Source of the DNA: Oerskovia paurometabola
GTDB lineage: Bacteria; Actinomycetota; Actinomycetes; Actinomycetales; Cellulomonadaceae
Length of the DNA stretch: 64,000 nucleotides
Direction of reading: 5' to 3'
Assembly: GCF_016907365.1 (NCBI RefSeq)
Contig: NZ_JAFBBV010000001.1
Coordinates: forward strand, 1,860,001 to 1,924,000
Shown one piece after another: positions 44,910-52,600 of the stretch; the stretch's first letter is position 1; the number at the start of each line of letters is the position of its first letter. The position numbers were made by a program, and so were the translations under genes. A model generated the notes under the pieces. That model was not told the origin of the DNA. It did no database searches and saw only the letters and a list, made by a program, of their open reading frames with translations.

Positions 44910-45413
44910 TCAGGTCGGCGGGAGCTGGCCGCCGATCGTCCCGAAGAGCTGTACCGCGGTGCCCAGCCCGCACGACACGATCTGGCCGAGCTGGTCGTCG
45001 GTCGCGCCCTGCTCGAGGTCGACCGACACCTCGGCGTAGACCGCGAGCCCCTGGCTCTCCTCACGGACGTAGACCTTGGGCCAGATGCGCTCGCGGTTCC
45101 AGTCGTTGACGGACTGCAGGAGAGCGAGCCGGGCCGTCACGGGCACCGTCGTCGACCAGCGTCCGCGGACCTGGAGGATCTCCTGGTGGTCGCCCAGGAG
45201 CAGGAACCAGAACCGGTTCCCGTCCCACGTGCCCGTGACGTCGCCGTCGTCGTCGATGCGGAAGTGGTAGCCGCGCCGCGACAGGTAGTCGCCGATGCGG
45301 CGGGTGGACAGCGGTGAGGGCACCTCGGCGTCGACGGGCACGTCCTCGACGGGCTTGGGCCGGTGGTTGCCGAACAGGCGCGCGAGCCAGCTCGTCCGGG
45401 GGGCGGGGCTCAC
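44910..45413 (-). CDS. YbjN domain protein A
   Basis: A 167-residue YbjN-family protein (putative sensory/secretion-chaperone-like fold, PF10722). The core from about residue 37 shows IGDYLSRRGYHFRIDDDGDV, HQEILQVRGRWST, WNRERIWPKVYVR and DLEQGATDDQLGQIVSCGL. These segments recur in the two other YbjN proteins here. A short basic N-terminus (LARLFGNHRPKP) is polar, so no membrane anchor. The GTG start overlaps the previous gene's stop by 4 nt, so the two YbjN genes are coupled. Molecular function is unknown. Confidence 0.82.
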   Translation of the reverse strand: MSPAPRTSWLARLFGNHRPKPVEDVPVDAEVPSPLSTRRIGDYLSRRGYHFRIDDDGDVTGTWDGNRFWFLLLGDHQEILQVRGRWSTTVPVTARLALLQSVNDWNRERIWPKVYVREESQGLAVYAEVSVDLEQGATDDQLGQIVSCGLGTAVQLFGTIGGQLPPT

Positions 45414-46054
45414 GGTGCCGACCTCGCGGGGTCGGGGTAGAACTCGTCGAGGGCGTCGAAGAACATCGACCCCGTCGACAGGCCGCACTGCAGGAGCTGG
45501 TCGAGCTGGTCGTCGTTCACACCGTGCTCGAGGTCGACCGTGACCTCGGTGAACACGTGGACCATGCCGTTGTCGCGCACGCGCGTGTACGCCTTGGGCC
45601 AGATGCGGTCCGCGTTCCACTCGTTGCAGAACTCGAGGATCTCCTCGAGGCGCTCGATCGTGATGTCCCGGTTCCACTGGCCGCGGACCTGGAGGATCTC
45701 GTGGTGGGAGCCGAACAGCAGGAAGTAGAACAGCCGCCCGTGCCACAGCCCGCCCACGTCGCCCTCGGCGTCGATGAAGTAGCTGTACCCGGCGTCGGCG
45801 ATCCACTCGAGGACGCGGGCGCGGTGCAGGGGGGTGGGGATCTTGTCGTGCTCGATGTCGGCGATCATGGTGCCGCCGAGCTCGCGGAGCAGGAGGCTCT
45901 CGACCGAGGCGTGCAGCGCGGCGTCGTCGAGCGGGGTGCCGGACGTCCCGCCGGCCTCGTCCCAGGCGTGCTCGTCGGGAGCGTCCTTCCTGCCCTGGTC
46001 GCCCGAGTCGTCTCGTCCTGCCTGGTGTCCCCGTCTGCCGCCGAAGAACCTCAT
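45410..46054 (-). CDS. YbjN domain protein B
   Basis: A 214-residue YbjN-family protein, paralogous to the next gene down. The N-terminal 55 residues are polar (GDQGRKDAPDEHAWDEAGG), then the domain: LEWIADAGYSYFIDAEGDVG, HHEILQVRGQWNRD, WNADRIWPKAYTRV, and DLEHGVNDDQLDQLLQCGL. Its ATG lies 6 nt from TAGGGT on the minus strand, making it the leaderless first gene of a two-gene unit. YbjN proteins may act as small regulators or chaperones, but no reaction is established. Confidence 0.82.
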   Translation of the reverse strand: MRFFGGRRGHQAGRDDSGDQGRKDAPDEHAWDEAGGTSGTPLDDAALHASVESLLLRELGGTMIADIEHDKIPTPLHRARVLEWIADAGYSYFIDAEGDVGGLWHGRLFYFLLFGSHHEILQVRGQWNRDITIERLEEILEFCNEWNADRIWPKAYTRVRDNGMVHVFTEVTVDLEHGVNDDQLDQLLQCGLSTGSMFFDALDEFYPDPARSAP

Positions 46055-46100: not shown

Positions 46101-46106
46101 TAGCGT
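46101..46106 (+). promoter_or_regulatory. -10 box TAGCGT, leaderless start
   Basis: TAGCGT, 7 nt, GTG 46114. It supports that codon over the GTG at 46105, which overlaps the box. Confidence 0.5.
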
Positions 46107-46113
46107 GGCGCGC

Positions 46114-46782
46114 GTGATCGTTCGCGCCGTCGCCCTGCCCGGTACCCCGTTGCTCGTCCCGGGCGTCGCGGGCGCCGCCGAGGTCCTCGCCGAGTCCCGC
46201 GCCCAGGCGCTCGACGCGCTCCGCGAGCTCGTGCAGGGCGCGCGGCGCGTCGTCGTCCTGGACTGCGGGGCTCGCCGGGCGGGGGACCGGCGAGGCGAGA
46301 TGCGTCCAGGTCTGGAGGCGGCCGGGGTCGACCCGCGCTGGTGGGGCTGGGCCCCGCGAGCATCGGCCGCCGCGCTGCCCGTCGCGGGAGTCCCTGCCTC
46401 GGTCGCTCTCCTGGCCCTCGCCGCGGCGGGCTGGGAGGGCCCGGTCGAGGTCGTCGAGCTCGGCGCCGCGCCCGCCGCGGCCGCCGTCGGGCTCGTGCGC
46501 GACGTCCTGGCGGAGCCGGGCACCGGACTGGTCGTCGTCACCGGTGCGCGGTCCCCGCTGCCCGACGGCGCCGCGTACCCTGCGAGCGCGGGTGCGGCAG
46601 GCGGTTCCGCCGGGGGCGCGAGCGTGGCGGGCAGCACGGCAGAGGACGCGGTGCTCCGCGCGCTCGGCGAGGCCTGGGACCGCGAGGCCCGGCACGCGAC
46701 GGGGGAGTACGAGGGACGCCTCTACGAGGTCGTGAGATTCCGGGTCCCCGCGGACGAGCAGGTCGCTACCGTGCCCCGGTGA
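46114..46782 (+). CDS. Class III extradiol dioxygenase-like protein
   Basis: A 222-residue protein, very rich in Ala, Val and Gly. Its position between miaB and miaA and the pattern VALPGTPLLVPGVAG with alternating strand/helix segments resemble the Rv2728c-like proteins of mycobacteria, which carry a degenerate LigB-type (extradiol ring-cleavage) fold. The metal His residues of true dioxygenases are not obvious, so an enzymatic role is doubtful. The start is set by a TAGCGT box 7 nt upstream. It is convergent with the repeat-protein operon, with a terminator between. Confidence 0.55.
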   Translation: MIVRAVALPGTPLLVPGVAGAAEVLAESRAQALDALRELVQGARRVVVLDCGARRAGDRRGEMRPGLEAAGVDPRWWGWAPRASAAALPVAGVPASVALLALAAAGWEGPVEVVELGAAPAAAAVGLVRDVLAEPGTGLVVVTGARSPLPDGAAYPASAGAAGGSAGGASVAGSTAEDAVLRALGEAWDREARHATGEYEGRLYEVVRFRVPADEQVATVPR

Positions 46783-46925: not shown

Positions 46926-49010
46926 TCAGCGGCGGCTGACCGCGTCCGCCACCTGGCCTGCCTCGTCGTCACGACCCAGGCGGCGCAGGGCACCGACGAG
47001 CTCGTTGCCCACGAGCGCGCGAGAGGCCTGGTCGTGCGCGAGCCGGAAGCCGTCGAGAGCCGACTCGAGCGCGAGGACCGCGCTCTCGACGTCGCCCGCG
47101 TCGGCACGCGTGGTCCCGGCCAGCCAGAACGCGTGCGCCGCGCCGCCCAGGTCGCCCGCGCGGGCGTACTCCTCGGCGACGGCCTCGGCGGCCGAGGACG
47201 CACGGTCGTGCTCGCCGAGCGTGGCCAGGAGCCGGGCTCGCGTGTCGAGGAGCTCGCGGCGCTCGCGGGCGGCCCGCTCCTCCTCCGCCGCGGCGACCGC
47301 TCCGTCCGCAGGGCCGGTCCCGACGCCGGCGACCGCGGTGCCCGCAGTGCCCGCAGTGCCCGCGACGCCTGCGACGCCTGCTGAGCCCCCCGAGGTCCCG
47401 TCGACGACCGCGTCACCGGCCTCCGCAAGAGCCCTCTCGACGGCCGCGAGGCCTGCGGCCGCGGCACCCGCCCGCGCGGTGAGCCGGGCGTAGGCCCGTA
47501 CGACCGGCCCCCGGTACGTGGGCCCGACGCCACCCGCACGCAGGAGCGCCACGGCGCGAGGGAAGGCCGCGAGGGCGCCCTCGACGTCCTGCTCGTCCGC
47601 CGCGAGCTGCGCGGCCTCGGCCAGCGCGAAGCCCGCCTCGTCGAGCGCGCCCTCGGCCTCGAGCAGTGCGGCGGCCTCCTGGTACAGGCCGGCGGCCCCC
47701 GCTGGGTCCTCGGACCTGACGTCCTCGGCCTGGGCCACGAGCGCCTGCGCGTCACCGGCCCGCGCGTCGTCGTCCTCGGAGGTGATCGCGGTGCTCGCGG
47801 TGAAGGCCGAGATGTCGGCGGGTCCGCCCGTCGCGGGGGCGGGCTCGGTGCTCCTCACCGGGGCCGCGGAGGTCCGGCTCGTCGCCGGGACGGGCGCTTC
47901 GGCCTGCGTGGTGCCGAGCACGCTCAGGCTCACAGGCAGGAGCGTGGGGGCGCTCGCCCACACCTCCTCGGTGCGTCGCGTCGTCGCGTCGGTGCCGTTG
48001 CGGGCGTCGAACGCGGCGGCGATCTCGCGGGCCTCGGTGCGCACCCAGGCGTCGAGCCCGGCGACCGTGGTCACCGGGACCTCGCGCAGGGCCACCCGGC
48101 GCTCGCCGTGCTCCGCCACGAGGATCGACGTCGCGGTCCCGACGCTGAGGAGGAACGACCAGCGGCCCCGCGGGGAGTCCGCCGTCACGAGGTGCTCCTG
48201 CTGCTCCACGATCCGGGTCAGGGCGCGCTCGACGTTGCCCGTCCGTGCGAGGAACTCGATGTGACGGCCCTGCGGCCCCTCCATCGAGACCCCGTTGTCG
48301 AGGTGCCGCAGGCCCCTGCGGTGGGTCGCGGCCGCCTTGTCGACGTCACCCGTCTCGAGGTAGGCGAGCTGGAGCCGGGAGAGCATGTCGCCCGGCTCGG
48401 TCGCGCACTCGGGCGAGCCCGCGAGGACGTGCTCCAGGAGACGGATGCCCTCGTCCAGGCGCCCGGCGTCGAACAGGTAGGCGGCGCGGTCGCCCGGTTC
48501 GCACGCCTCGCACTGCGAGAAGTCGTCCCGGGGGGTCGCGACCCACGCCTCGTACGCCGTCGCGGTGTCCTGCGTCCCGCGGGCACGAGCCCACTGGAAG
48601 CGAGACATCGTCACGGCGTTCATGCCGTTGCCCGCCACCGCGTACCGGCGCTCCATGTCGTCGAGCGTCCGCTCGATCTGCGCGGCCGGGACGGCGGGGA
48701 AGTCCATGAGGTTGCCGACCATCCACTTGAACGACCAGAACAGCGAGTGCGTGTCCTGCTCGTCGAAGTGCTCGGGGTGCTCGTCCCACCACCGCAGGAG
48801 CTGGGTGAAGGGCAGGTACGCCTTGGTGACCTCGTTGCCCCACACGTAGGACTCGACCAGCACGAACAGTGCGTACGCGCGGGCCTCGGCGGGGCCCTCG
48901 GCCGTGATCCGTTCGAGCTCTGCGGCGGCGGTGGTGCTCCGGGCGATGCCGTAGGGCATCTCGCGGACGTGGAACAGCGCTTCGTTGGCCTCGTGGACCG
49001 AGCGGGTCAT
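46926..49010 (-). CDS. Large helical-repeat (TPR-like) protein
   Basis: A 694-residue protein, all-alpha by appearance. The N-terminal half shows repeated helical pairs (RAYALFVLVESYVWGNEVTK, AAYLFDAGRLDEGIRLLEHV, LSRLQLAYLETGDVDKAAAT) typical of tetratricopeptide-like arrays. The centre (about 390-460) is Pro/Ala/Thr-rich, and the C-terminal half has a second array (LYQEAAALLEAEGALDEAGF, AAHAFWLAGTTRADAGDVES) broken by a Gly/Ala/Val low-complexity run. The start ATG overlaps the stop of the HSP90-like gene by 4 nt, so it is the last gene of a coupled trio. A TPR protein beside an HSP90 homologue suggests co-chaperone-like binding, but this is inference. Confidence 0.72.
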   Translation of the reverse strand: MTRSVHEANEALFHVREMPYGIARSTTAAAELERITAEGPAEARAYALFVLVESYVWGNEVTKAYLPFTQLLRWWDEHPEHFDEQDTHSLFWSFKWMVGNLMDFPAVPAAQIERTLDDMERRYAVAGNGMNAVTMSRFQWARARGTQDTATAYEAWVATPRDDFSQCEACEPGDRAAYLFDAGRLDEGIRLLEHVLAGSPECATEPGDMLSRLQLAYLETGDVDKAAATHRRGLRHLDNGVSMEGPQGRHIEFLARTGNVERALTRIVEQQEHLVTADSPRGRWSFLLSVGTATSILVAEHGERRVALREVPVTTVAGLDAWVRTEAREIAAAFDARNGTDATTRRTEEVWASAPTLLPVSLSVLGTTQAEAPVPATSRTSAAPVRSTEPAPATGGPADISAFTASTAITSEDDDARAGDAQALVAQAEDVRSEDPAGAAGLYQEAAALLEAEGALDEAGFALAEAAQLAADEQDVEGALAAFPRAVALLRAGGVGPTYRGPVVRAYARLTARAGAAAAGLAAVERALAEAGDAVVDGTSGGSAGVAGVAGTAGTAGTAVAGVGTGPADGAVAAAEEERAARERRELLDTRARLLATLGEHDRASSAAEAVAEEYARAGDLGGAAHAFWLAGTTRADAGDVESAVLALESALDGFRLAHDQASRALVGNELVGALRRLGRDDEAGQVADAVSRR

Positions 49011-50956
49011 CGGTTCTCCTCCAGGTGGGTCGTGCCGGGGCGCAGCGCACGGTCGAGCAGGACGCCGAGCGAGCCGTTCATGAGGGTGGCCTCGGAGGCC
49101 CGCAGGGGCCTGCCGGACAGCAGCAGGGCGGTGACGTACAGGGACTGGGCGCCGGCCTCGAGGACCTGCGGGTCCGTCGTCGCGAGCAGCGACCTGACGG
49201 TCTCGTTGGTGTCGTTGAGCACGAGCCGCCGGGAACGGGCCGGACCCGTGAGCCCGGCGAGGACCTGGCCCCAGACGTCGTCCGCCGCGTCCGCGGTGGC
49301 CTGCGCCTCGCGCTCGTGGTCGCCGTCCCGGTCGTGCAGGAGCATCGCGGGCAGGGCCGAGGGCTCGAACGCGCGCACGATCGCCTCGCAGTCGTGCGGT
49401 GCGAGCGCACCGTCGACGGCCCGGACGGCGTCGGCGACCTCGAGCTCGCGCAGCGGGTCGACCTCCAGGAGCGCCTGGGAGACGTCGGTCGAGGTCACGG
49501 GGGCGAGGCGCCACTGCGGGAAGCGCCGCGAGACGCGTTCGAGCAGGTCCGCGTCGTAGACGTACCCGCCGTTGACGAGCCCGAGCCCCTGGGCCGCCGC
49601 GACCGGCGCGACGCGCCGGAACTCCTCGACGCTCGGGGTCCACAGGAGGCGGGCCCCCTCGGGCAGGGTGGCGGCCAGGTCCGTGAGCGTGCCCGTCCCT
49701 TCGGTGGTCTCGAAGGGAAGGACCCGGGCCGCGAGGTCGAGCATGTCGTCGTCCTGGAGGGCGAGCGCCCGGACGGCGAGGTGGTGCACACGCAGGAACG
49801 CACGGCTCGTGGGGGAGTGCTCGGCCAGCGTGGCGAGCGCCCACGCCCGGACCTGGGCGCCGAGGGCCTCGCGCGTCGCGAGCAGCACCTCGTCCTCGTA
49901 GAGCCCCTCGCGCGACGCGGTGGGGCGCAGCGCGGAGGCGTCCAGGACACAGCGGACGAAGAAGGCCCACGGGGGCAGGAGGTCGTCGACCCGCGTCCCC
50001 AGGAGCATGCGCTTGAGGTACACGCGGTGGCTCGACGGGGTCGTGGGCGAGACCGCGGCGGGCAGGACGTACGCGACGCCGGTCAGGCCTGCGAGGGGCA
50101 GGTCGAGGTCGATGCGCGCGAGCGGCGTGAAGCCGAGCGTCTGCTCGGCGTACCGGGTCAGGGCCGCCTCGCGCTCGGCGGACGACGCGTGCTGTTCCTT
50201 CCACGGGAGGTCCTTGCCGCTGAGCCGGCGCCAGACCGTGGGGGAGTCGACACCCGTCGCAGGGGTGGCCTCCGCGGCGACCGGGTCGACCCCGGACCCG
50301 GGGGACCCGTCCGTACCGTCGGTCGGGTCCAGGTCGAGACGGACCTCGACCTGGAGGTCGACAGGGAGCAGCGACCCGAAGTCCTGCGCGAGCGCCGTGA
50401 CGGTCTCCGGGGCGAGCCAGTGCTCCATGTCGCGGCGCGGACGCAGGCGGACGATGCTGCCCGGCCCTTCCGGGACCGCTGAGTCCTCGCCCAGCACCTC
50501 GGCCAGCTCGTAGCTGCCGTCGGCGAACCCGCGCCAGCGCACCGGAGCGGGGGCTGCGCCGTCGGGCAGGGGGCGCGCCGAGCGGGACGTGAGCTCGATC
50601 TCGTCGGCGACCATGAACGCGGACAGCAGTCCGATGCCGAACTGGCCCAGGAACTCCTCGCGGCCCGTGCCGAGCTCGACGTCGCGCTTGGAGCTGCGAC
50701 CGATCGTGGCCAGCAGCTCGCCGGCCTCGGCGAGCGTCAGTCCCACCCCGGAGTCCGCGACCTCGAGCCCGCCGTCGGGCAGCGGCCGCAGCCGGATCGT
50801 CGCCGGGGCGTCCTCGCCGGCGAGCCCGCGTCGCGCGGTGATCGCGTCCACCCCGTTCTGCAGGAGCTCGCGCAGGTACACGCGCGGGCTCGAGTACAGG
50901 TGGCGTGCCAGCAGGTCGACGACCCCGTGCAGGTCGACCTGGAACGTGCTCGTCAC
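49007..50956 (-). CDS. HSP90-like GHKL ATPase
   Basis: A 649-residue protein of the HSP90 superfamily but divergent. The N-terminal ATP-binding GHKL domain has Glu30 and Asn34 in YLRELLQNGVDAIT, Asp68 in VADSGVGLTLAE, the lid TIGRSSKRD, and LGQFGIGLLSAFMVADEIEL (residues 103-122). The middle domain retains VYLKRMLLGTRVDDLLPPW and LRPTASREGL with the catalytic Arg. The C-terminal third lacks a recognisable HtpG dimerisation domain. A Pro/Gly/Thr insert (about 208-232) interrupts the middle domain. The GTG start overlaps the YbjN C stop and the end overlaps the repeat-protein start, each by 4 nt. It is likely a specialised chaperone. Confidence 0.85.
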   Translation of the reverse strand: MTSTFQVDLHGVVDLLARHLYSSPRVYLRELLQNGVDAITARRGLAGEDAPATIRLRPLPDGGLEVADSGVGLTLAEAGELLATIGRSSKRDVELGTGREEFLGQFGIGLLSAFMVADEIELTSRSARPLPDGAAPAPVRWRGFADGSYELAEVLGEDSAVPEGPGSIVRLRPRRDMEHWLAPETVTALAQDFGSLLPVDLQVEVRLDLDPTDGTDGSPGSGVDPVAAEATPATGVDSPTVWRRLSGKDLPWKEQHASSAEREAALTRYAEQTLGFTPLARIDLDLPLAGLTGVAYVLPAAVSPTTPSSHRVYLKRMLLGTRVDDLLPPWAFFVRCVLDASALRPTASREGLYEDEVLLATREALGAQVRAWALATLAEHSPTSRAFLRVHHLAVRALALQDDDMLDLAARVLPFETTEGTGTLTDLAATLPEGARLLWTPSVEEFRRVAPVAAAQGLGLVNGGYVYDADLLERVSRRFPQWRLAPVTSTDVSQALLEVDPLRELEVADAVRAVDGALAPHDCEAIVRAFEPSALPAMLLHDRDGDHEREAQATADAADDVWGQVLAGLTGPARSRRLVLNDTNETVRSLLATTDPQVLEAGAQSLYVTALLLSGRPLRASEATLMNGSLGVLLDRALRPGTTHLEENR

Positions 50957-51453
50957 AGCGGCAGGTCCTCGACGAAGACGTTCGCGTCGTCCGCGTCCGC
51001 GTCCGGGTCGGGGAAGCGCTCGTCGAGCTGCTCGAAGAACTGCAGCCCCGAGTACAGCCCGCACTCGACGAGCTGGCCGAGCTGGTCGTCCGCCGCGCCG
51101 TGCTCCAGGTCGGTCGACACCTCGGTGTAGACCGCCACGTGCTCGCCCTCGACGCGCGTGTACACCTTGGGCCAGATCCTGCTCTGGTTGAACTCGTTGG
51201 CGACCGAGGTCACCCGGGCCTCGTCGGCGACCGGGAGCGTGCGGTTCCACCGTCCGCGGACCTGCAGGATCTCGTCCTTGCTCCCCATCACGAAGAAGTA
51301 GAAGACGTTCCCGTCCCAGCCTCCGCCGAGGTCGCCGTCGTCGTCGACCCCGTAGTTCCAGCCCTTGCCCGCCAGGAAGGCCTCGACCCGGTCGCGCGAC
51401 AGCGGAGCGTTGGGAGTCTGGGTCGTGTCGCCGGGCTTGGTGAAGTAGCTCAT
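50953..51453 (-). CDS. YbjN domain protein C
   Basis: A 166-residue YbjN-family protein, first gene of a coupled trio with the HSP90-like ATPase and repeat protein. Family segments: VEAFLAGKGWNYGVDDDGDL, KDEILQVRGRWNR, FNQSRIWPKVYTRVEGE and DLEHGAADDQLGQLVECGL, then a short acidic tail (DPDADADDANVFVEDL). ATG 51453 has GAGGAACGAG upstream. A TAGGCT about 90 nt further up on the minus strand may be its -10. All three YbjN proteins share DDQLxQ and CGL, so they are recent paralogues. Direct contact with the ATPase is suggested by gene coupling only. Confidence 0.82.
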   Translation of the reverse strand: MSYFTKPGDTTQTPNAPLSRDRVEAFLAGKGWNYGVDDDGDLGGGWDGNVFYFFVMGSKDEILQVRGRWNRTLPVADEARVTSVANEFNQSRIWPKVYTRVEGEHVAVYTEVSTDLEHGAADDQLGQLVECGLYSGLQFFEQLDERFPDPDADADDANVFVEDLPL

Positions 51454-51634
51454 GTCTCGTTCCTCGTCGTCGGTTGCCGCTGCGGTGCGGCGGCGAAGGC
51501 CGTGCGGGCGGGCTGCATGCCCCTGTCCGCCCACCCTGAGGAGCCTACGCACGTCCACCCACACCGGGACAGGGTGGATTTGTCCGACCGGGCCGAGCAC
51601 CCCGGCCGGTCGGGGGGCGGGCAGGATCGCCGGG

Positions 51635-51640
51635 TACGGT
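51635..51640 (+). promoter_or_regulatory. -10 box TACGGT, leaderless start of miaA
   Basis: TACGGT, 6 nt (TCTCGG), ATG 51647. It removes 65 upstream codons of the open frame. Confidence 0.6.
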
Positions 51641-51646
51641 TCTCGG

Positions 51647-52600
51647 ATGCTCATCGTCGCCGTCGTCGGCCCCACCGCGACCGGGAAGTCGGACCTCGCC
51701 CTCGACCTCGCGCAGGCCCTGGCCCCTGCCGAGATCGTCAACGCCGACGCCTACCAGCTCTACCGCGGCTTAGACGTCGGGACCGCGAAGGTGCCCGTCG
51801 ACGAGCGGCGGGGGATCGTCCACCACCAGCTCGACGTGCTCGACCCCACGAAGGACGCGTCGGTCGCCGACTACCAGGCCGCGGCCCGCGCCGACCTCGA
51901 CGCGATCGTCGCGCGCGACGCCCGCCCGGTCGTGGTGGGCGGGTCGGGGCTGTACGTGCGCGCGCTCCTCGACGAGATGAACTTCCCCGGCACGGACCCG
52001 GACGTCCGCGTCCGGCTCGAGGAGCGCGCCGAGCGGGAGGGGACCAGGGCCCTGCACGCCGAGCTCGCCCGGCTGGACCCCGCGGCCGCGACGTCGATCG
52101 GCCCGTCGAACACCCGGCGCATCGTGCGGGCGCTCGAGGTCATCACGATCACGGGCGAGCCCTTCACGGCGAACCTGCCGCGCCAGGAGTACGTCCGCCC
52201 GGCCGTGCAGATCGGGCTCGACTGCGACCGCGAGACGCTCGACGCACGCGTCGCGGGGCGCGTCGAGCGCATGTGGGCCGGCGGCCTGCTCGACGAGGTC
52301 CGCACGCTCGCGCCGCACCTGGGCCGCACCGCGGCCCGCGCGGTCGGTTACGCGGAGGTGCTCGCGCACCTGCGCGGGGAGATCTCGGCCGACGAGGCGC
52401 GCGAGCAGATCACCGCGAACACGCGCCGGCTGGCGCGCAAGCAGATGGGGTGGTTCGGCCGCGACCCGCGCGTGCACTGGCTCGACGCGCAGTCGCCCAC
52501 GCTGCTCGCCGACGCGCTCGAGATCGTCCGGGCCGCCGACGACGGCACCCTGGACGCGCGCACGGACGAGCGGCCGACGCGCCGTAGTCTGGGCTCATGA
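51647..52600 (+). CDS. miaA: tRNA dimethylallyltransferase
   Basis: A 317-residue enzyme that prenylates A37 of tRNAs, giving the substrate of MiaB. The P-loop GPTATGKS is at residues 8-15, followed by VNADAYQLYRGLDVGTAKVP, HHQLDVLDPTKDASVADYQ, GGSGLYVRALLD, NTRRIVRALEV, and the C-terminal tRNA-binding region with ARKQMGWFGRDPRVHWLDA. Its last codons contain the dapF -10, and the stop overlaps the dapF start (ATGA). Confidence 0.95.
   Translation: MLIVAVVGPTATGKSDLALDLAQALAPAEIVNADAYQLYRGLDVGTAKVPVDERRGIVHHQLDVLDPTKDASVADYQAAARADLDAIVARDARPVVVGGSGLYVRALLDEMNFPGTDPDVRVRLEERAEREGTRALHAELARLDPAAATSIGPSNTRRIVRALEVITITGEPFTANLPRQEYVRPAVQIGLDCDRETLDARVAGRVERMWAGGLLDEVRTLAPHLGRTAARAVGYAEVLAHLRGEISADEAREQITANTRRLARKQMGWFGRDPRVHWLDAQSPTLLADALEIVRAADDGTLDARTDERPTRRSLGS
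52585..52590 (+). promoter_or_regulatory. -10 box TAGTCT of dapF, inside miaA
   Basis: TAGTCT, 6 nt (GGGCTC), ATG 52597. It would allow leaderless expression of dapF independent of miaA. Confidence 0.5.

Follow-up and report, generated by a model that had tools for sequence, protein, structure and literature searches.

Three genes on the minus strand of Oerskovia paurometabola, encoding a YbjN protein, an Hsp90-family protein and a repeat protein, are coupled in one operon and are the subject of this analysis. They lie in a window of 64,000 nucleotides (nt), by which we mean the whole stretch analysed (positions 1,860,001 to 1,924,000 of contig NZ_JAFBBV010000001.1), within a 4.33-Mb chromosome (G000). 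A preliminary description, made from the sequence alone, had reported that the genes overlap by 4 nt each and had suggested that their products form one machine. Both overlaps are present, and the first gene does encode a YbjN protein. We refer to the second protein and its relatives as HSP90f, and to the third as the tetratricopeptide repeat (TPR) partner, the grounds for which are given below.

50953..51453, minus strand: YbjN (P0001, 166 residues), first gene of the operon; PF10722, 89.2 bits against a cut-off of 22
50953..50956, minus strand: 4-nt overlap of YbjN stop and HSP90f start, read from the sequence
49007..50956, minus strand: HSP90f (P0002, 649 residues, GTG start); NF010683, 717.3 bits against a cut-off of 455
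49007..49010, minus strand: 4-nt overlap of HSP90f stop and TPR start, read from the sequence
46926..49010, minus strand: TPR partner (P0003, 694 residues), assigned from TPR models in relatives, an AlphaFold2 (AF2) model and adjacency
47946..49010, minus strand: TPR N-domain (residues 1-355), predicted to resemble MalT domain III; common to the Firmicutes partners and the YbjN fusion
48321..48512, minus strand: TPR Cys/His cluster (C167-x2-C170, C202, H230), putative metal site
46929..47762, minus strand: TPR C-domain (residues 417-694), predicted LGN-like solenoid, faster evolving

HSP90f is a complete Hsp90

P0002 belongs to NCBIfam NF010683 (PRK14083, 'HSP90 family protein'), a model that bears a name only, with no partner or function attached. 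It fails the HtpG model NF003555 (123.9 bits against a cut-off of 371), and in the tree HSP90f proteins form a clade separate from HtpG (support of 100 in the Shimodaira-Hasegawa-like approximate likelihood ratio test, SH-aLRT). The protein had been described as a GHKL ATPase without a recognisable C-terminal dimerisation domain, which proved wrong: in profile alignment P0002 matches HtpG over its full length, that domain included, and its AF2 model aligns with the Hsp90 fold up to residue 640. A stripped GHKL ATPase is ruled out by these alignments, and HSP90f is a complete Hsp90 with N, middle and C-terminal domains. Residues E30, N34, D68, G70 and G72 and the GQFGIG loop, which we take to be the Bergerat ATP-binding motifs, are invariant in 20 diverse HSP90f members, as are S348, R349 (the conserved Arg) and E350 of the middle domain, in a region that aligns with HtpG. 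HSP90f would be expected to dimerise and to hydrolyse ATP.

The partner protein and its candidate roles

P0003 has no TPR match over the Pfam cut-off; among 49 relatives scanned, TPR_16 is matched in 15 and TPR_12 in 11 (E up to 0.01). The AF2 model consists of two helical solenoids, each a superhelix of helix pairs. Sequence searches of the PDB returned weak repeat matches only, with none to MalT, Rap or NprR within the thresholds, while comparison of the AF2 model matches the N-domain fold to MalT domain III and to the TPR domains of Rap and NprR; the C-domain fold is predicted to be LGN-like. The 694-residue repeat protein of the preliminary description is thereby borne out as a TPR protein, apparently built from a conserved MalT-domain-III-like half and a faster-evolving LGN-like half. 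All three cysteines of the N-domain cluster are present in 110 of 122 TPR partners and H230 in 82%; the other 12 partners are without at least one cysteine, and six of these, from a single lineage, have none of the three. Such a pattern of Cys and His residues suggests that the cluster may bind metal. One lineage (L068, L069, L071, L073, L076, L077) has three consecutive TPR genes after HSP90f, of about 370, 750-790 and 850 residues, the first of which is without the cluster.

The TPR partner might instead be the dedicated client of HSP90f, acting as a sensor or regulator in the manner of MalT or Rap that HSP90f matures and keeps ligand-ready, as eukaryotic Hsp90 does for its receptors; YbjN would then assist this receptor as an accessory holdase. 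We regard this as the main rival, albeit an unlikely one, to a role as co-chaperone or client adaptor. No DNA-binding or catalytic domain was matched in P0003 or the 49 relatives, some proteins of the TPR family exist without HSP90f, and a repeat fold by itself shows no function. The co-chaperone role that we prefer draws on the distribution of the two genes.

HSP90f and TPR genes form a near-obligate pair

Gene neighbourhoods were compared at 127 HSP90f loci (L062-L108 and L110-L189), 47 from sampled genomes and 80 from the best matches in a named-species collection; being sampled or best-scoring, they are phylogenetically redundant, and L064 and L127 are one contig. The 21 controls comprise the canonical HtpG locus L109 and L190-L209. 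Genes were called by a codon-usage script, with the HSP90f of L126 called too long and the TPR gene of L104 partial. The TPR label at these loci was assigned with a profile that had been rebuilt once from the same neighbourhoods; the first profile and the genome searches (A3, A6) are less circular.

Immediately after HSP90f, and on its strand, a TPR-family gene follows at 124 of the 126 loci that have a downstream gene; the same holds for 0/21 HtpG loci. At 83 of the junctions the genes abut or overlap, and at 109 they are no more than 30 nt apart; of 1133 genes at a distance of more than two genes, 8 bear the TPR label. Two loci depart from the rule: at L090 a NAD synthase gene intervenes between HSP90f and TPR, and at L093 a 746-residue gene with no Pfam match, resembling by eye the TPR-labelled partner of L094, overlaps HSP90f upstream. 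The pair stays together at different chromosomal sites.

Whole genomes give the same picture. Across a family sample of 150 genomes, HSP90f is found in 59 and TPR in 60, namely the same 59 plus G553, or 1 of the 91 genomes without HSP90f. In G553, of the same genus as the window, one deletion removed nearly all of HSP90f and the N-terminal half of TPR, leaving an intact YbjN and a 254-residue C-terminal TPR remnant (L210:5729-7073). An order set of 45 genomes has TPR (E <1e-30) in 20/22 with HSP90f and 0/23 without, the two misses (G427 and G428) being of the L094/L093 type. In a class sample of 196 genomes, HSP90f occurs in 30 and the TPR N-domain in 31, with 29 in common (29/30 against 2/166); the HSP90f genome that has no N-domain match, G270, has a divergent 297-residue TPR gene overlapping HSP90f. 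Four genomes of the class sample (G023, G153, G749 and G764) have two matches of each kind, and in G153 and G361 each HSP90f copy is paired with the TPR subtype typical of its own HSP90f relatives. The mirror-tree correlation between the two families (r 0.90, 120 pairs) still includes shared phylogeny, and we do not count it as proof. By gene order and genome content, the two genes form a near-obligate pair.

The pair extends beyond Actinobacteria. A search of plasmid-labelled records for NF010683-type genes found them with a TPR partner in two Firmicutes genera, Paenibacillus and Listeria. In Paenibacillus, HSP90f overlaps by 4 nt the gene of a 353-residue protein with CxxC, C and FDxRNG motifs. 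The Listeria HSP90f scores 799 bits against NF010683, and 11 nt downstream lies the gene of a 324-residue protein with a TPR match over cut-off, which aligns with residues 24-350 of the actinobacterial TPR family (99.5%, E 3.8e-22). Since the Firmicutes partners consist of the N-domain alone, this domain is the core of the family. Two control genomes, those of Corynebacterium glutamicum and Deinobacterium chartae, also exceed the NF010683 cut-off. Two Listeria 'plasmid' records, L228 (0.39 Mb) and L233 (2.9 Mb), appear to be chromosomal sequence under a wrong label.

That HSP90f and TPR form one machine is well supported by adjacency, co-presence and co-absence, matched subtypes in two-copy genomes and the pair in two Firmicutes genera. 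To this extent the suggestion of a single machine stands; its inclusion of YbjN fares less well, as set out next.

YbjN as an optional third member

YbjN is a same-strand neighbour of the pair at 45/127 loci and of HtpG at 0/21. At the 45 loci it lies upstream in 39, after TPR in 5 and inside the overlong gene call in 1 (L126); in five metagenome-assembled genomes of Propionibacteriaceae it follows TPR, in four of them at -1 nt. Two further YbjN genes lie near the operon, coupled and on the same strand as first described, beyond a plus-strand open reading frame (ORF):

45410..46054, minus strand: YbjN paralogue, pair member 1 (P0005, 214 residues); PF10722, 105.9 bits
44910..45413, minus strand: YbjN paralogue, pair member 2 (P0004, 167 residues); PF10722, 95 bits; 4-nt overlap with member 1

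A genome search finds exactly three YbjN genes, the trio YbjN and this pair. The plus-strand genes flanking the region are, judging by their sequence and order, presumably miaB and miaA/dapF, the gene at 51647 being miaA. The YbjN pair was considered as part of the unit and rejected: its members form clades of their own, neither of which contains a trio YbjN, and the pair is kept at all 8 examined sites that have no complete unit (g263, g194, g195 and L210 of G553). The YbjNs found after TPR group with a trio YbjN in the same tree (91/68, unsure).

YbjN content follows HSP90f in part. At least three YbjN genes are present in 41/59 genomes of the family sample with HSP90f and 19/91 without (Fisher p 3e-9, phylogeny not removed). 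Of eight genera tabulated, the third YbjN and HSP90f matched exactly in three, g263, g197 and g194 (16/16 against 0/22). At six sites without HSP90f in g263 and g194, miaB, the YbjN pair and miaA are kept and the trio is absent; in the sole g194 genome with HSP90f, the trio sits at that location.

YbjN and TPR domains are directly linked in G192 and G753. There, a YbjN gene shares 4 nt with a gene of 534 and 524 residues, respectively. Residues 19-380 of the 534-residue protein are the same TPR N-domain (E 5.7e-42 over 355 columns, with Cys and FDARNGT aligned), and each of the two proteins has a C-terminal YbjN domain (61.5 and 63.2 bits against a cut-off of 22). A search with the fusion protein gave 338 matches; the 120 listed all have PF10722, and the named genera among them are Micromonospora except for one labelled Nonomuraea. 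No HSP90f gene lies in the 14 kb around the fusion genes of G192 and G753, and G753 carries an HSP90f-TPR pair elsewhere in its genome. As TPR occurs nearly always with HSP90f, and in some lineages with YbjN even where HSP90f is absent, TPR is the hub of the system.

Membership of YbjN in the same machine is moderately supported by the 45 loci, by gain and loss together with HSP90f in three of the eight genera and by the Micromonospora fusion. These observations also bear on the simplest rival, co-transcription without shared function. Compact genomes often have operons whose genes overlap, but chance packing accounts poorly for a pair that stays together at different chromosomal sites and in two phyla, and is present or absent jointly, or for a YbjN that switches side and is fused to a TPR domain. 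We consider co-transcription alone highly improbable.

Selection and the prospect of a defence role

Ratios of nonsynonymous to synonymous substitution (dN/dS) were obtained for the window against four of the five other Oerskovia HSP90f loci (L221 left out), plus L210. In the four Oerskovia comparisons they are 0.15-0.21 for HSP90f, 0.15-0.20 for the TPR N-domain, 0.26-0.40 for the TPR C-domain and 0.34-0.60 for the trio YbjN; as references, the pair YbjNs give 0.02-0.28 and miaB gives 0.04-0.05, and all values are <1. The variable parts, TPR C-domain and trio YbjN, may be those that recognise clients.

Fast evolution of YbjN and the TPR C-domain would also suit a role in phage defence or other conflicts, with Hsp90, TPR and YbjN sensing an invader or inhibiting it. 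The patchiness of the unit across genomes and its loss as one block fit such a role, as do HSP90f copies on Streptomyces plasmid records, and YbjN-like TY-chaperones are described in conflict systems in the part of PMC9503650 cited here. A relative below the NF010683 cut-off, from Pseudanabaena, adjoins TIR and TPR genes. However, searches of PADLOC-DB 2.0.0 gave three weak ATPase-fold matches, all to P0002 (best E 0.0041), and nothing for the remaining five proteins; no effector domain was matched in the trio, and the window's unit is located among conserved core genes. We find a defence role improbable. The Pseudanabaena plasmid locus itself (L230:4219-9801) encodes an 877-residue HSP90-like protein (NF010683, 383 bits) whose C-terminus weakly resembles TIR; a TIR gene adjoins it and a TPR gene lies two genes further, and the whole looks like a conflict locus.

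A proposed dedicated Hsp90 unit

The reading we favour, at a probability of roughly 0.55, is a dedicated Hsp90 unit made up of an HSP90f clamp with TPR as its co-chaperone or adaptor, optionally joined by a YbjN holdase. HSP90f would serve as the ATP-driven clamp. TPR would most likely be a co-chaperone, or an adaptor for clients: the conserved MalT-like N-domain, which the Cys/His metal site probably staples, would dock on HSP90f, while in Actinobacteria the variable C-terminal solenoid may pick the clients. YbjN, where present, could be an ATP-independent holdase resembling a type III secretion chaperone, which holds unfolded segments and passes them on via TPR. HSP90f, TPR and YbjN would accordingly form a physical complex through which clients are transferred. 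More tentatively, and with rather less confidence than in the unit itself, we propose a second Hsp90 system in Gram-positives, served by a TPR co-chaperone of its own and, in certain lineages, by a YbjN holdase as well; its relay from YbjN through TPR to HSP90f, with EEVD-free docking, would have evolved independently of the Hsp90-TPR system of eukaryotes.

Several observations weigh against a unit of this kind. An EEVD-like C-terminal tail occurs in 0/127 HSP90f proteins, which excludes docking of TPR by the eukaryotic rule. The NF010683 cut-off is passed in only 12/296 genomes of a phylum sample and 35/198 of an order sample, and with so patchy a distribution HSP90f is not a housekeeping chaperone. 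TPR is found without HSP90f in G162 and G192 of the class sample, as a weak relative in a Priestia record, and in an Actinomyces oris record that reads YbjN-YbjN-TPR with no HSP90f in it. The preliminary description had asked whether the trio travels together across genomes or is separated in most: HSP90f and TPR do adjoin, and YbjN stands apart from them at 82/127 loci. In g195, g271 and g201 at least three YbjN genes are kept in most or all genomes without HSP90f, and in g262 HSP90f is present with two YbjN genes or fewer. Nor are the trio YbjNs one clade; that of the window groups weakly, with seven others, with the pair-2 clade (92/72) and not with those of the Cellulomonas trios, which may mean that the trio arose on more than one occasion.

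Relation to known chaperone systems

Eukaryotic Hsp90 works with TPR co-chaperones such as Hop, FKBP51 and CHIP, and the likeness lies in the combination of an Hsp90 with a TPR protein. The present system differs in an HSP90f that has no EEVD-like tail, in a TPR N-domain that is MalT-like with a Cys/His cluster, and in its encoding by a single operon. Should our reading prove correct, Hsp90 would have joined forces with TPR proteins a second time, independently of eukaryotes. For bacteria, M. tuberculosis HtpG is said, in a title of 2023 (PMC10269695), to bind DnaJ2. HtpG (NF003555) shares its three-domain architecture and motif residues with HSP90f, but belongs to the other clade and has no TPR neighbour at the control loci. 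The TPR domains of MalT (domain III), Rap and NprR share a predicted fold with the TPR N-domain, whereas the Cys/His cluster marks the HSP90f-partner family.

Chen et al. 2006 (PMC1525184) split bacterial HTPG into groups A-C, three lineages, and noted a second, shorter HTPG (615 residues) in Streptomyces coelicolor; the sections cited here name no TPR partner. Bacterial Hsp90 is stated, in the cited passage of PMC7926864, to have no identified cochaperones. The YbjN relatives AmyR (PMC5398634) and DR1245 (PMC3575483), which carry PF10722 like the trio YbjN, are expected to bind partners in the manner of class I type III secretion chaperones, ATP-independently, and the cited portions of those papers report no Hsp90 or TPR partner. 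Among the matches listed from open-licence PMC full texts, none gives an account of an HSP90f-TPR or YbjN-Hsp90 link. NF010683 and the HTPG groups had already been named; a TPR or YbjN partner is absent from the open-licence papers listed. With the Hsp90-TPR pair and the TPR-YbjN fusion there are concrete candidates for the partner of a bacterial Hsp90 and for what YbjN does.

Expression and neighbouring genes

One further feature lies upstream of the operon:

51454..51646, no strand: divergent intergenic region facing the plus-strand gene at 51647, from gene calls

The operon promoter would be expected here. The CIRCE heat-shock element (controlling inverted repeat of chaperone expression) has no match anywhere in the window, and HAIR (HspR-associated inverted repeat) has two weak matches with 2-3 mismatches, far from the operon, with as many found in 12/100 shuffles. 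Heat-shock control through either element is therefore unsupported.

NAD synthase genes occur in some HSP90f operons and are possibly a hint to clients. A glutamine-dependent form lies upstream of HSP90f in termite-gut Propionibacteriaceae (L129:5811-7862, the gene tested against Pfam, with similar starts at L131 and L133); the shorter gene at L090 (L090:6645-7484) belongs to a locus unrelated to that group. Loci of Streptomyces type (L100:9307-10296, L106, L107, L108, L178:914-1912 and L229:3923-4900) carry an ORF of 325-332 residues just 5' of HSP90f; of these ORFs, the three scanned against Pfam (L100, L178 and L229) gave no match. The TPR-family gene of G162 (L234:4802-8014) encodes 1070 residues and has no HSP90f or YbjN in the 14 kb around it; beside it lies a 398-residue ORF that is presumably IS110-type transposase-like. 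In the window, the plus-strand ORF between the YbjN pair and the trio (46105-46782, 225 residues) has no Pfam or NCBIfam match; it is fast evolving (dN/dS 0.36-0.43 in the four Oerskovia comparisons) and has a homologue at the equivalent place in several relatives.

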